From NCBI GenBank assembly GCA_016196035.1, contig JACPYM010000023.1, forward strand, positions 1-64,000: a stretch of DNA of 64,000 nt. The letters run 5' to 3'. The position numbers were made by a program, and so were the translations under genes. The notes below the pieces were generated by a model. It saw only the letters and a program-made list of their open reading frames with translations, had not been told where the DNA came from and ran no database searches. This DNA comes from Acidobacteriota bacterium. Its GTDB lineage: Bacteria > Acidobacteriota > Blastocatellia > RBC074. Within the stretch, counting starts at the first letter, position 1; each line of letters starts with the position of its first letter. Positions 8,606 through 45,372 of this stretch are shown here, piece by piece.

Positions 8606-8661
8606 AGGGCTTTTGCAAAGTCGCAGCGCGAGCGCTCGCGCTGCGACTTTGCAAAAGCCCT
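8606..8661. repeat. Perfect 56-bp palindrome without spacer
   Basis: Two perfect 28-base arms meet at 8633/8634 (arm begins AGGGCTTTTGCAAAGTCGCA and ends GCGCGAGC). It starts 3 bases after the GH35 stop and ends 61 bases before the GH67 start. It could act as a transcription-attenuating or mRNA-stabilising hairpin, or be a REP-like element. There is no T-tract, so it is not a standard terminator. Confidence 0.85.
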
Positions 8662-10900: not shown

Positions 10901-11031
10901 AGGACTTACGCAAAGATTTGCCACAGAGGCACAGAGACACAGAGCTTTTTTACAGTGTTGGTGGAGTTCTCTGTTTTCCTCTGTGTCTCTGTGCCTCTGT
11001 GGCAATCTCGCTCGCGTTTTGCGTAAGTCCT
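10901..11031. repeat. Family B hairpin element (CACAGAG repeats), copy 1
   Basis: A 131-bp imperfect palindrome. The outer arms are AGGACTTACGCAAA (10901-10914) and its complement (11018-11031). The inner arms of 27 bases (10918-10944 and 10979-11005) are built from three CACAGAG-type units beginning TTGCCACAGAGG. A 34-base loop separates them. It lies between the GH67 stop and the enolase-superfamily gene. A related copy is at 45197-45372. Confidence 0.85.
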
Positions 11032-15917: not shown

Positions 15918-15932
15918 GCAGAAGGAATGAAG

Positions 15933-18146
15933 ATGAAAAATACAGCCCAACCCAATTTCACTCGTAAGTTCATGTTTTCTTTCATTGCCGTTACCCTGTT
16001 GTTGGCGGTTGGAGGCGCTTTGCGCAACAGCAGCGCGCAAGCACCTGATTATCGCAATGCCACTCTGCCCATTGAACGCCGTGTCGGCGATTTGCTCAGT
16101 CGCATGACTATCGAAGAGAAAGCCGCACAGATGCAGACGCTTTGGGTCAGGAAGCCGCAGCAGCGTCGTCCCAATGGCAACTTCGGTGATCGCGGCGACT
16201 TCTCGCCGGAAGAGGCCGCTATCGTGCTGAAAAACGGTATCGGCGAGATTGCCCGCCAACGTGAGCGCACCGATGCGCGACGCGGCGCTGAATACGCCAA
16301 TGCCGTACAGAAGTGGCTGAAGGAAAACACACGTCTCGGCATCCCGGTGATGCTACACGATGAAATCTTGCATGGATTGATGGCGGTGGGCGGCACGAAC
16401 TTCCCTACTCCAATCTCGCTGGCTTCCAGTTGGGATACGGAACTTATCACGAAAGTCTTCACTGCTGCCGCGCTCGAAACGCGCCTGCGCGGCAGTCAGC
16501 ACGTGCTAGGACCAAACCTCGATCTGGCGCGTGATCCGCGCTGGGGCCGCACGGAAGAAACCTACGGTGAAGACCCCTATCTCGTTGCGCGCATGGGCGT
16601 CGCGGCGATCAAAGCGATTCAAGGGACTTCATTAGGAATTGGCGCGCCGATCATTGATGGCGAGCACGTCATGGCCACAGCCAAGCATTTCGCCGCGCAC
16701 GGCCAGCCCGAAGGCGGCACGAACACCGCGCCCGGTAATTTCTCCGAACGTATCTTGCGCGAAGTCTTCTTGCCTTCGTTTGAGGCTGCCGTGAAAGAAG
16801 CGGGGGTGTTGAGCGTGATGCCCTCTTACAACGAGATTGATGGCGTGCCGTCGCATAAGAACACTTGGTTGATTGAAAAGCTGCTGCGTCAGGAATGGGG
16901 CTTTCGCGGTTTGGTCGCGGCGGATTACAACGGCATCTCAGAACTCGTCTCGCGTCACAGAGTCGCGGTAGATCGGGCCGATGCGGCACAGCAAGCCTTG
17001 CGTGCTGGCGTAGACATTGAATTGCCCGATCCGTCTTGTTACCCGCTGCTGCCGCAACTTATCAGCGAAGGCAAAGTTTCCCTCGCGGATATTGATAAAT
17101 CTGTCGCTCGCGTGTTGCGCGCTAAATTCCAGCTTGGTTTATTCGAAAACCCTTTCGTGGAGGTCGAGCGCGCCATCAAACTGACCAACAGCCCGGCGCA
17201 TCAGCAACTCGCGGCCGAGGCCGCGCGCCGTTCCATCGTACTGTTGAAAAACGTAGGTAATCTGTTGCCGCTGGATGTTGGTAAGCTACAGTCTTTTGCC
17301 GTTATCGGACCCAACGCAGCGGGGGTGCATTTAGGTGGTTACAGCGACGATCCGCAACACGGCGTCAGCGTATTGCAAGGCGTGCGTGACAAGGTCGGCA
17401 GCAAGCTCAAGATCAATTACGCCGAAGGCTGCAAGATCACCGAAGAGGATGGCAAGTGGTGGGACGATAAATCAAACCTTGCCGATCCAGTGGAAGACGC
17501 CAAGTTGATTGCCGAAGCCGTCGCCACGGCCAAAGCCTCTGATGTGGCCTTGCTGGTCGTAGGTGGCAACGAAGACACCAGCAAAGAAGCCTGGGCCGAC
17601 AATCACATCGGCGACCGCGATACGCTGGATTTGGTGGGCCGCCAAAACGATCTGGTCAAAGCCATTGTCGAAACCGGTAAGCCGGTCGTCGTGCTGCTCA
17701 TCAACAGCGCGCCGCTTTCGATCAACTACATTGCCGAAAATGTCCCGGCCATCTTGGAAGGCTTCTATCTAGGACAGGAAACGGGCGTGGCCGTCGCTGA
17801 CGTCCTGTTCGGGGATACCAATCCGGCGGGCAAGCTGGCGGTCAGCATTCCGCGCTCGGTCGGGCAGTTGCCGATTTACTACAACCACAAACCGACGGCG
17901 CGCCGCGGCTATCTGTACACCAGCAAGGAGCCGCTGTTTCCGTTTGGTTTTGGGCTGAGTTACACGACGTTTGAATACTCCGATTTGAAAGTCGCGCCCA
18001 CGCAGATCGGGCCGCATGGACAAGCCGAAGTCAGCGTGACGGTCAAAAACACCGGTAACCGCGCGGGCGATGAGATCGTCCAGCTTTATATCCGCGATGT
18101 AGTCAGTTCCGTCCACGAAGTCACACGAAGAGAACACGAAGAATAA
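15933..18146 (+). CDS. GH3 beta-glucosidase/beta-xylosidase, C-terminus replaced by a repeat element
   Basis: A 737-residue exported GH3 enzyme with a signal peptide ending near NSSAQ. Landmarks are MLHDEILHG, GPNLDLARDPRWGRTEETYG, the KHFAAHG substrate-binding motif and the nucleophile Asp in VAADYNG. The C-terminal alpha/beta sandwich carries GGNEDTSKEAW and FPFGFGLSYTTF. A fibronectin-III-like domain begins (VTVKNTGNRAGDEIVQLYIRD) but is cut after VVSSV. The last ten residues, [10 protein letters not shown], are read from the left arm of a hairpin element, which also supplies the TAA. Some 75-85 residues are probably lost. AGAAGGA is well spaced for ATG 15933 rather than 15927. Confidence 0.9.
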   Translation: MKNTAQPNFTRKFMFSFIAVTLLLAVGGALRNSSAQAPDYRNATLPIERRVGDLLSRMTIEEKAAQMQTLWVRKPQQRRPNGNFGDRGDFSPEEAAIVLKNGIGEIARQRERTDARRGAEYANAVQKWLKENTRLGIPVMLHDEILHGLMAVGGTNFPTPISLASSWDTELITKVFTAAALETRLRGSQHVLGPNLDLARDPRWGRTEETYGEDPYLVARMGVAAIKAIQGTSLGIGAPIIDGEHVMATAKHFAAHGQPEGGTNTAPGNFSERILREVFLPSFEAAVKEAGVLSVMPSYNEIDGVPSHKNTWLIEKLLRQEWGFRGLVAADYNGISELVSRHRVAVDRADAAQQALRAGVDIELPDPSCYPLLPQLISEGKVSLADIDKSVARVLRAKFQLGLFENPFVEVERAIKLTNSPAHQQLAAEAARRSIVLLKNVGNLLPLDVGKLQSFAVIGPNAAGVHLGGYSDDPQHGVSVLQGVRDKVGSKLKINYAEGCKITEEDGKWWDDKSNLADPVEDAKLIAEAVATAKASDVALLVVGGNEDTSKEAWADNHIGDRDTLDLVGRQNDLVKAIVETGKPVVVLLINSAPLSINYIAENVPAILEGFYLGQETGVAVADVLFGDTNPAGKLAVSIPRSVGQLPIYYNHKPTARRGYLYTSKEPLFPFGFGLSYTTFEYSDLKVAPTQIGPHGQAEVSVTVKNTGNRAGDEIVQLYIRDVVSSVHEVTRREHEE

Positions 18147-18195
18147 GTGAAATCGCTTAACGGCCTCTTCGTGTTCTCTTCGTGTGACTTCGTGG
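18113..18195. repeat. Family A hairpin element (CACGAAG repeats), copy 1
   Basis: Perfect 30-base inverted arms at 18113-18142 and 18166-18195 with a 23-base loop. Each arm contains three CACGAAG units (CCACGAAGTCACACGAAGAG start). The left arm is translated as the end of GH3 and the right arm ends 16 bases before the Nif3-like start. A related copy is at 20574-20694, so the two copies bracket the Nif3-like and CE15 genes. Confidence 0.88.
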
Positions 18196-18211
18196 GAAAC
18201 GATTTCCATTT

Positions 18212-19105
18212 ATGAACATCCACGATACATCACGCCGCAACTTCCTGCTTGCTTCAATAGGACTGGCAGCTTCAAAACTGGTGCGGGCACAAGCTGCACC
18301 GCTCACCGCCGGGCAAGTGCTTGAGCGCATCAAAGCCAACGTCGGCATCCCCTGGCGCGCGCAAACCGTAGACAACCTCATTGCCGGCGTGCCTGACACG
18401 CCCGTTAAAGGCATCGCGACGACAATGATGGCGACGCTCGACGTGGTGCAACGCGCCGCTGCCGCCGGCAGGAACATGATCATCACGCACGAGTCCACCT
18501 TCTTCTCACATCAGGATCGCACCGATAACATCCAGCAAGACCCGACGTATCAGTTCAAGCTCGACTTTCTCAACAAGAACAAAATGGCCGTGCTCCACTT
18601 CCACGATCATTGGCACGGACACAAGCCGGACGGCATCGCCGTAGGGATGATGCGCGAAGTCGGCTGGGAGAAATTCGCCGACCCGCAAAATCCGAAGAGC
18701 TTTACCTTCCCCGGCATCCCGCTCGCACGGCTAGCGAAAGAACTGGAAACCAAGTTGAAGATTCGCACGATGCGCGTCATCGGCGACCCGCAATTGCCGA
18801 TCAAACACGCGCTGGCGAGTTGGGGCAATTGCAGCTTGATGCCGGGCATTCCCTTTCTCTCCCAACCCGGCGTGGACGTGCTGATTCTGGGTGAAACGCA
18901 CGAATGGGAGTTGGTCGAGTACGTGCAAGACCAGATTGTTTCCGGCCAAAAGAAAGCCTTGATCGTGTTGGGCCACGTCGTATCAGAGCAAGCCGGGATG
19001 AAGTATTGCGCCGAATGGCTGAAAGGCTTCATCAACGAAGTGCCGATTGAATTCATCGCGGCGGCAGAACCGTTCTGGCGTCCTGACAAACCAGTCTCAC
19101 GTTAA
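18212..19105 (+). CDS. Nif3-like dinuclear metal centre protein, Tat-exported
   Basis: A 297-residue NIF3/YbgI-family protein. The N-terminus has a twin-arginine signal ([20 protein letters not shown]). The core contains [12 protein letters not shown] and [15 protein letters not shown], with histidines typical of the metal site, plus GETHEWE and [10 protein letters not shown]. Family members are hexameric metal-dependent proteins of unclear activity, usually cytosolic and about 250-370 residues, so export is unusual. It lies between GH3 and the glucuronoyl esterase and may be part of the xylan operon. No Shine-Dalgarno is seen because the hairpin element occupies the upstream sequence. Confidence 0.82.
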
Positions 19106-20560: not shown

Positions 20561-20573
20561 TCACAGCTATAGC

Positions 20574-20694
20574 TTTCAAGAAAAAGAAATTCTCCCACGA
20601 AGCTACACGAAGAAAACACGAAGCAGGATTGCTGGGTATTTCTTTCTTCGTGGAATCTTCGTGTGGCTTCGTGGGGAAAATCATTATCTTGAAA
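20574..20694. repeat. Family A hairpin element (CACGAAG repeats), copy 2
   Basis: A 121-bp imperfect palindrome. The outer arms are TTTCAAGA (20574-20581) and TCTTGAAA (20687-20694). The inner arms of about 30 bases (20594-20623 and 20646-20675) share the three-unit CACGAAG pattern of copy 1, with four mismatches between arms. It fills almost all the space between the convergent CE15 and trmL stops, ending one base from the trmL stop codon. Confidence 0.85.
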
Positions 20695-20695
20695 T

Positions 20696-21169
20696 CTACA
20701 ACTGGCGTAAGGCTTCGTAGAGCACGATGCCCGCCGAGGTCGCCAAGTTCAGCGAGCGAATGTTTGGGTTGGGCATGGGAATGCGCAGGCAGCGTTCCCG
20801 GTTCGCCCGCAACAACTCTTCGGGCAAGCCGCGCGTCTCGCGTCCGAAGACGAGGCAATCGTGCGGCTGATATTGCCAGTCGGTGTAAACGCGCTCGGCT
20901 TTGGTGGAGAAATAAAGAAAGCGGCTGTCTGGAAGGCTTTCTTGCAATGCTTCGAGCGAGCGATGGTGAATGATCTCGACGTGTTCCCAATAATCCAGCC
21001 CGGCGCGCCGCACATATTTGTCATCGGTGCGAAAGCCGAGTCTGCCGACCAGGTGCAGCGTCGTGTAGGTCGCTCCACACAGGCGGGCGATGTTGCCGGT
21101 ATTGGGTGGAATTTCAGGTTCGATCAGTGCGATGTGCAGGCGGGAATGTAACTCTGGCGGATAAAGCAT
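20696..21169 (-). CDS. trmL: tRNA (cytidine(34)-2'-O)-methyltransferase
   Basis: A 157-residue SpoU/TrmD-fold (SPOUT) methyltransferase, the same length as typical TrmL. The N-terminal IALIEPEIPPNTGNIARLCG, the central LVFGRETRGLP and the C-terminal RIPMPNPNIRSLNLATSAGI form the three SPOUT motifs that build the AdoMet knot. It 2'-O-methylates the wobble base of certain tRNA-Leu. The ATG at 21169 is preferred over an upstream TTG at 21178. It is convergent with the CE15 gene. Confidence 0.92.
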   Translation of the reverse strand: MLYPPELHSRLHIALIEPEIPPNTGNIARLCGATYTTLHLVGRLGFRTDDKYVRRAGLDYWEHVEIIHHRSLEALQESLPDSRFLYFSTKAERVYTDWQYQPHDCLVFGRETRGLPEELLRANRERCLRIPMPNPNIRSLNLATSAGIVLYEALRQL

Positions 21170-24247: not shown

Positions 24248-24345
24248 GCGCGCGTAGCGCAACCTGCCGAGTTGCGCGGTGTCGCACGTGAAGCCTGGGC
24301 CGTAGCTATGACACCGCGCAACTCGGCAGGTTGCGCTACGCGCGC
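24248..24345. repeat. Family C hairpin element (GTAGCGCAACC type), copy 1
   Basis: Perfect 36-base inverted arms at 24248-24283 and 24310-24345 (arm begins GCGCGCGTAGCGCAACCTGC) with a 26-base loop. It lies in the divergent region between acnA and the giant secreted-protein gene. A related copy with the same GTAGCGCAACC..GCCGAG..GTTGCGCGG layout is at 40902-41024. Confidence 0.88.
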
Positions 24346-40901: not shown

Positions 40902-41024
40902 GGTGTCAGTAGCGCAACCCTGCCGAGGTTGCGCGGCTTCCGCGCTTACTTAACTGACAGTTCAACTGGCGGCTCAGGTAGAAGTGCCTGAAGCCGCGCA
41001 ACCTCGGCAGGGTTGCGCTACACC
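40902..41024. repeat. Family C hairpin element (GTAGCGCAACC type), copy 2
   Basis: Perfect 32-base arms at 40909-40940 and 40990-41021 (arm begins GTAGCGCAACCCTGCCGAGG) around a 49-base loop. GGTG/CACC extends the arms outward with a 3-base insertion on the left. Further out, TGCGACA (40874-40880) and TGTCGCA (41031-41037) are also complementary. It separates the reductase promoter from the metalloprotease gene. Confidence 0.85.
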
Positions 41025-45196: not shown

Positions 45197-45372
45197 TGTC
45201 CTGATAAAAAGTTGCAATTCAGTGAAGACTTCAAATCAGCCACAGAGGCACAGAGTATTTTTGAGCAATCTCGCCAATCCTTGTGCTTCGCCTCTGTGCC
45301 TCTGTGCCTCTGTGCCTCTGTGCCTCTGTGCCTCTGTGGCTGATTTTGTAAACGCAACTTGCTAGTAGGACA
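45197..45372. repeat. Family B hairpin element (CACAGAG repeats), copy 2, expanded
   Basis: A 176-bp imperfect palindrome. The outer arms are TGTCCT (45197-45202) plus AAGTTGC (45209-45215), complementary to GCAACTT (45354-45360) and AGGACA (45367-45372). The inner arms are 23 bases (45233-45255 and 45324-45346) starting AAATCAGCCACAGAGGCACA. It occupies much of the space between parB and the TIGR03437 gene. The remaining sequence of this 420-bp gap holds nothing I can assign. Confidence 0.82.
45291..45338. repeat. Six tandem copies of CCTCTGTG
   Basis: Six exact consecutive 8-base units form the right part of the family B element, while the left arm holds only about two units. The excess looks like slippage expansion. 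There are no spacers, so it is not a CRISPR array. Confidence 0.9.

Follow-up and report, generated by a model that had tools for sequence, protein, structure and literature searches.

The ends of bacterial genes may be reshaped by mobile repeats that enter coding sequence or by losses that draw a gene into a repeat standing next to it, and the locus analyzed here raises the question of which of the two has given a glycoside hydrolase gene its present end. It lies in a 64,000-nt stretch of DNA (referred to as the window; G000:C23:1-64000) belonging to a 9.59-Mb draft genome (G000; 139 contigs, 96.9% complete). Compared genomes carry G numbers and fetched loci L numbers. The features on which the argument depends are as follows.

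15927-18146, + strand: GH3 glycoside hydrolase ORF of 739 aa, truncated past residue 729; PF00933 and PF01915 matched, PF14310 without a match
18111-18113, + strand: junction codon GTC (V729), placed by comparison with GTCACGCGC in G009
18113-18142, + strand: left arm of the hairpin, made up of three CACGAAG heptamers and translated in the GH3 frame (inverted-repeat search)
18143-18165, + strand: loop of 23 nt, containing TAA at 18144-18146 (inverted-repeat search, ORF)
18166-18195, + strand: right arm, followed by the usual GAAA edge of the CACGAAG family (inverted-repeat search, edge comparison)
18196-18211, + strand: the 16 nt that remain from the hairpin to the next ATG
18212-19105, + strand: NIF3-like (DUF34) gene, also the next gene after GH3 in G007, G008, and G009

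A GH3 gene that ends within a hairpin

The inverted repeat reported here by a first-pass annotation made from the DNA letters is confirmed as perfect, with two 30-nt arms and a 23-nt gap. When 18105-18205 is folded as RNA, the predicted energy is -60.9 kcal/mol, whereas shuffled sequences average -24.1 (z -11.8), and as 0 of 200 shuffles did as well, the hairpin is not a chance structure. The annotation had further assigned the last ten codons and the stop to the left arm. The codons are indeed repeat derived (730-739, at 18114-18143: CAC GAA GTC ACA CGA AGA GAA CAC GAA GAA), but the arm ends at 18142 and the stop falls in the loop. Gene and repeat overlap by 1 nt at position 18113, which closes the last homologous GH3 codon as its third base and opens the left arm.

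That the gene has been cut off and that the repeat supplies its new end, as the annotation had it, is borne out by homologues, which are 67 to 71 residues longer and none of which ends at the same residue. Of 35 loci chosen from 80 matched ones, 34 read through with a proper tail, the remaining one (L069) having been left out of the tail count on account of a start coordinate out of frame. The last D-x-VSS-like motif stands 67 to 71 residues ahead of the stop in 33 of these 34; at the other (L085) the search misplaced the motif, and TVTRPVLE is present there too. When ten homologous loci were read past the breakpoint, nine went on for 69 to 71 residues and the tenth, L064, ran off its contig. 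The closest homologues, in G007, G008, and G009, are 69 residues longer past this point, and the loss therefore measures 69 residues, or 59 net of the ten gained, rather than the 75 to 85 first proposed.

The closest named matches to the protein are acidobacterial metagenome-assembled genomes (L060 and L065), which in the compared stretches are identical to G009 and G007, respectively. PF14310, the Fn3-like domain, is complete in both intact homologues (1-71 of 71), and without it the ORF described here does not belong among GH3 proteins with a complete C-terminal Fn3-like domain. Relocation of the tail, which the annotation had suggested looking for, is ruled out for this assembly: a Pfam search of the whole genome (9.6 Mb) gave no PF14310 match at E 0.001 or better, from which it follows that the tail is gone and not moved elsewhere.

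Gene order in relatives and the extent of the loss

The order GH3-NIF3 is conserved in three relatives, with an intact GH3 gene in each, and only the slot between GH3 stop and NIF3 ATG varies. In G007 it measures 28 nt and is empty of hairpins. The other two slots are occupied, that of G008 (87 nt) carrying a hairpin of another family with 25-nt arms past a 10-nt spacer, and that of G009 (151 nt) an imperfect repeat visible by eye but not picked up as a hairpin by an exact-arm search. In G001, the one compared genome of the same genus (73% complete), GH3 gave no match and other sequence stands ahead of NIF3.

As only 16 nt separate the right arm from the NIF3 ATG in the window, the missing part amounts to at least 69 codons and a stop, or 210 bp. 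An insertion alone would leave those 69 codons downstream of the repeat, and since they are absent, insertion alone cannot explain the locus. Taken with an odd left edge described below, the absent codons leave the earlier claim that this gene gives direct evidence of repeat movement into coding sequence without support.

Could the absence be an artifact of short reads misjoined at the hairpin, the organism itself still having the tail? A draft assembly of 139 contigs and the difficulty of sequencing hairpins make such an error conceivable, but we hold it to be very improbable. The join preserves the gene order of three relatives, no contig has a PF14310 match, and the longest exact match of 18051-18260 among the other fetched copies is 22 nt, which makes a repeat-mediated misjoin unlikely.

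We consider it likely instead that a deletion of at least 210 bp ran into a hairpin already standing behind an intact GH3 gene, and that no hairpin jumped into the gene. The starting state would have been an intact GH3 gene with a CACGAAG copy a few nucleotides past its stop. A deletion of at least 210 bp (69 codons and the stop; about 220 bp with the usual spacer) would then have taken the tail, the stop, and the spacer, together with the outermost bases of the repeat, and would have ended at the base of the hairpin. The reading frame now enters the left arm and stops in the loop. We infer the order of these events, hairpin first and deletion later, from the present arrangement. The hairpin itself may also have provoked the deletion, by folding back during replication or through hairpin cleavage. 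The junction has 1 nt of microhomology only, and the mechanism of the deletion is accordingly not marked by the sequence. Against the deletion stands the intermediate state, an intact GH3 gene with a CACGAAG hairpin behind it, which was not found in any genome compared.

A dispersed family of CACGAAG hairpins

The repeat belongs to a family that is abundant in its own genome, where the arm pattern matches 50 times in forward and 52 times in reverse orientation (102 in all; reversed-pattern control, 0). It is present in 13 of the 58 genomes searched, among them 7 of the 11 from the same bacterial family (G000, G001, and G006 to G010). The common form, from 66 clusters in the window and 60 fetched stretches of G000, is CCACGAAG NN ACACGAAG NN(N) CACGAAG, then a loop of unconserved sequence and the complement. 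The ends of the element are CCACGAAG with a YYKC edge, and the outer flanks are near random. In this genome 31 copies retain both outer heptamer pairs intact, and the arms of 21 of them are complementary at the first spacer dinucleotide (shuffle mean 6.4, maximum 15). The corresponding figure in G001 and G007 is 6 of 14 (shuffle mean 4.4, maximum 9), which is no clear excess, and arm covariation is thus not shown to be general.

The window contains a second member.

20595-20674, no strand assigned: second CACGAAG hairpin, lying 34 nt past one stop codon, with a converging stop 21 nt away

Some copies are recent, as the 138-bp unit around it (20561-20698) recurs at L206, L221, and L241 with 93 to 98% identity over 132 to 138 bp. 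At L221 the unit lies about 1.4 kb from a RAYT gene. The only Rfam matches, at 20583-20687, were to two animal microRNA families far below their gathering scores, and were taken as chance matches on a long hairpin.

Position behind stop codons and the edges of the repeat

Elsewhere in G000, copies of the family are frequently found shortly past a stop codon. REPs are reportedly found within 15 nt of stop codons, with a role in translation, in work by Liang, Rudd, and Deutscher from 2015. With genes called by a simple custom caller, a converging stop is present within 600 nt of 57 of the 66 clusters, and only for the GH3 copy does the nearest such stop fall within the repeat itself (-34). With this copy left out, 22 of the other 56 sit 6 to 11 nt behind the converging stop, whereas 20,000 random placements within those gaps gave 7.3 on average and never more than 17. 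The preference has its limits, and two observations count against the deletion: within 16 nt of the stop the excess is modest (29 of 56 own-genome copies; null mean 20.3, maximum 34), and in G001 and G007 the stop-proximal peak was not seen, with only 4 of 43 copies in the 6- to 11-nt class.

The edges of the GH3 copy point in the same direction as the position of the family. In G000, 43 of 47 two-armed copies have C ahead of the left arm; with G001 and G007 added, C stands ahead of the left arm in 58 of 74 and ahead of the right arm in 63 of 74. The GH3 copy has an atypical T at its left edge and the usual TTTC at its right. This is a weak signal that would fit a deletion reaching the left base. 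It consists of one to a few bases and odd edges occur in several other copies too, which counts against giving it weight for the deletion. Taken together, the habit of the repeat of standing behind stops, the hairpin behind an intact stop in G008, and the odd left edge make a deletion in one event the most economical explanation.

It could alternatively be proposed that the repeat was inserted at GH3 codon 729 and that the untranslated 3' remainder was then lost, through target loss or a later deletion on the right side. Family copying has left recent traces in the near-identical units around the second hairpin, and coding sequence contains a CACGAAG copy in frame in at least one case. This copy, at L216 5001-5129 (G000:C75:42056-42184), has a 71-nt loop and both edges intact and is read within a 1541-aa TIR-CHAT-NB-ARC-TPR ORF directly past a DNVESL motif, where four compared homologues have a linker about 25 to 30 residues shorter. 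L216 is a better case than GH3 for a copy ending up in coding sequence, so the annotation's broader point survives there and not at the GH3 locus. For GH3 itself we judge insertion unlikely, as a right-side deletion should trim the right edge, whereas the right edge is normal and the left is not, and as the scenario needs, besides an unusual insertion site, that the tail and most of the gap be lost. A candidate second truncation, at L200 9741, where the stop abuts the repeat, was rejected because its periplasmic binding domain is covered to 257 of 258 and no truncation is seen.

The shortened enzyme

What remains of the ORF is open and under constraint. The pairwise comparison with G008 gives a low dN/dS (dN 0.098, dS 1.04, the latter near saturation), and residues 661-729, next to the breakpoint, are not accelerated (own-branch dN 0.025, G008-branch 0.061). 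In the AlphaFold2 model of the intact L065 protein, seven strands follow from residue 660 onward, mostly with high confidence, and by alignment the breakpoint would fall near L065 residue 707, past the third of the seven. The model of the truncated protein keeps two strands (682-690 and 701-708), with pLDDT down to 42 and 28 in the final blocks. The truncated GH3 probably retains both catalytic domains, with the Fn3-like domain reduced to a remnant.

An open and constrained reading frame that does not accelerate toward its new end, followed by a very stable hairpin, might speak for an adaptive truncation, in which the hairpin serves as a functional 3' end (terminator or mRNA stabilizer) selected together with the shortened enzyme. 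Such selection would be compatible with a history of deletion, but we think it very unlikely. A recent loss would look alike, and in the model the Fn3 remnant amounts to two strands, with little confidence in its final part. Moreover, the right arm is followed by GAAACG and not by a T-run, and a reading as an intrinsic terminator was rejected on this ground. The hairpin is also absent from a terminator scan for loops of 3 to 8 nt, a limit that its 23-nt loop exceeds.

The locus is a clean case, with three intact orthologous loci for comparison, of a noncoding hairpin repeat ending a protein. With the truncated GH3 one could find out if the enzyme can do without its Fn3-like domain, and if such deletions recur, the many gene-flanking hairpins in this group of bacteria would generate change at C-termini.

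Comparison with known repeats

In the literature, strings of the CACGAAG and CACAGAG families met with one unrelated fish paper and no bacterial occurrence, and the titles and opening lines of abstracts contain no description of such repeats in this acidobacterial group, which does not prove their absence. The closest parallel is with GTAG- and CGTC-tagged REP elements, which in the accessible part of their description are for the most part found past the 3' ends of genes, often at <20 bp, and now and then within genes, and which give genes stop codons (PMC3733652). As far as that part of the source extends, CACGAAG resembles them as a short dispersed hairpin of many copies downstream of genes, near stops in G000, with the peak not seen in G001 and G007 (PMC3733652). 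It differs in having no conserved GTAG or CGTC end, in arms built of three heptamers at 10- to 11-nt spacing, and in that here the stop is a TAA in the loop and the host gene has lost a domain end (PMC3733652). The CGTC at 18110-18113 is part of the GH3 codons and not a repeat end.

CACGAAG hairpins also resemble REPINs and other RAYT-mobilized miniature elements, judging from the portion of that work available, in being nonautonomous dispersed palindromes (PMC3116915). Unlike in that system, as far as the same portion describes it, the repeats adjoining RAYT genes here are of other families (PMC3116915). The genome has 14 Y1_Tnp matches, and a CACGAAG hairpin occurs at only 2 of these 14 loci (L171 and L173), in the outer flank about 1.2 to 1.4 kb beyond the gene and not adjoining it; RAYT was accordingly rejected as the partner of the family.

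Hairpins are known to cause breaks and rearrangements in bacteria, according to the accessible parts of two studies, and a GH3 deletion ending at a hairpin base would be akin to such palindrome-stimulated events (PMC3315005, PMC4245961). The palindromes described in those parts differ, one being interrupted and the other a 460-bp perfect palindrome, whereas the arm here, at 30 bp, is much shorter than 460 bp (PMC3315005, PMC4245961).

A more general proposal, which goes well beyond this locus and which we regard as quite unlikely, would be that stop-adjacent hairpins act as deletion traps, with the hairpin base as a preferred endpoint and C-termini repeatedly shortened and capped by repeat codons and stops, and that CACGAAG is a REP-like class spread or maintained by a factor recognizing heptamers about one helical turn apart, with spacers paired copy by copy.

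Other hairpins in the genome

The window and the 60 fetched stretches (662.6 kb) hold 167 perfect hairpins (arms of at least 14, loop of at most 70), 137 of which are not CACGAAG. In many of these, the arms are tandem arrays of short units, AGTGGATAGTTGACAGTGG and CAGGATTGACAGGATT for example. At L189:9596-9997 and L198:6694-7392, genes end in ...VPRA with a TGA inside the arm of a GGTACCGCGCGCGTGAGC hairpin, and the stop is supplied by the repeat; neither was counted as a truncation, the domain at L189 reaching 218 of 219 and L198 having no family match. Within the window, CACAGAG hairpins at 10918-11005 and 45233-45346 share the plan of CACGAAG, their arms being built of short tandem units, but have another heptamer, and a 28-bp perfect inverted repeat without a loop stands 2 nt behind a stop codon at 8606-8661. 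The GTAGCGCAACC hairpins at 24248-24345 and 40909-41021, with perfect arms of 36 and 32 bp, are GTAG REP-like, the first of them having a match in the flank of L182, a weak Y1_Tnp locus.
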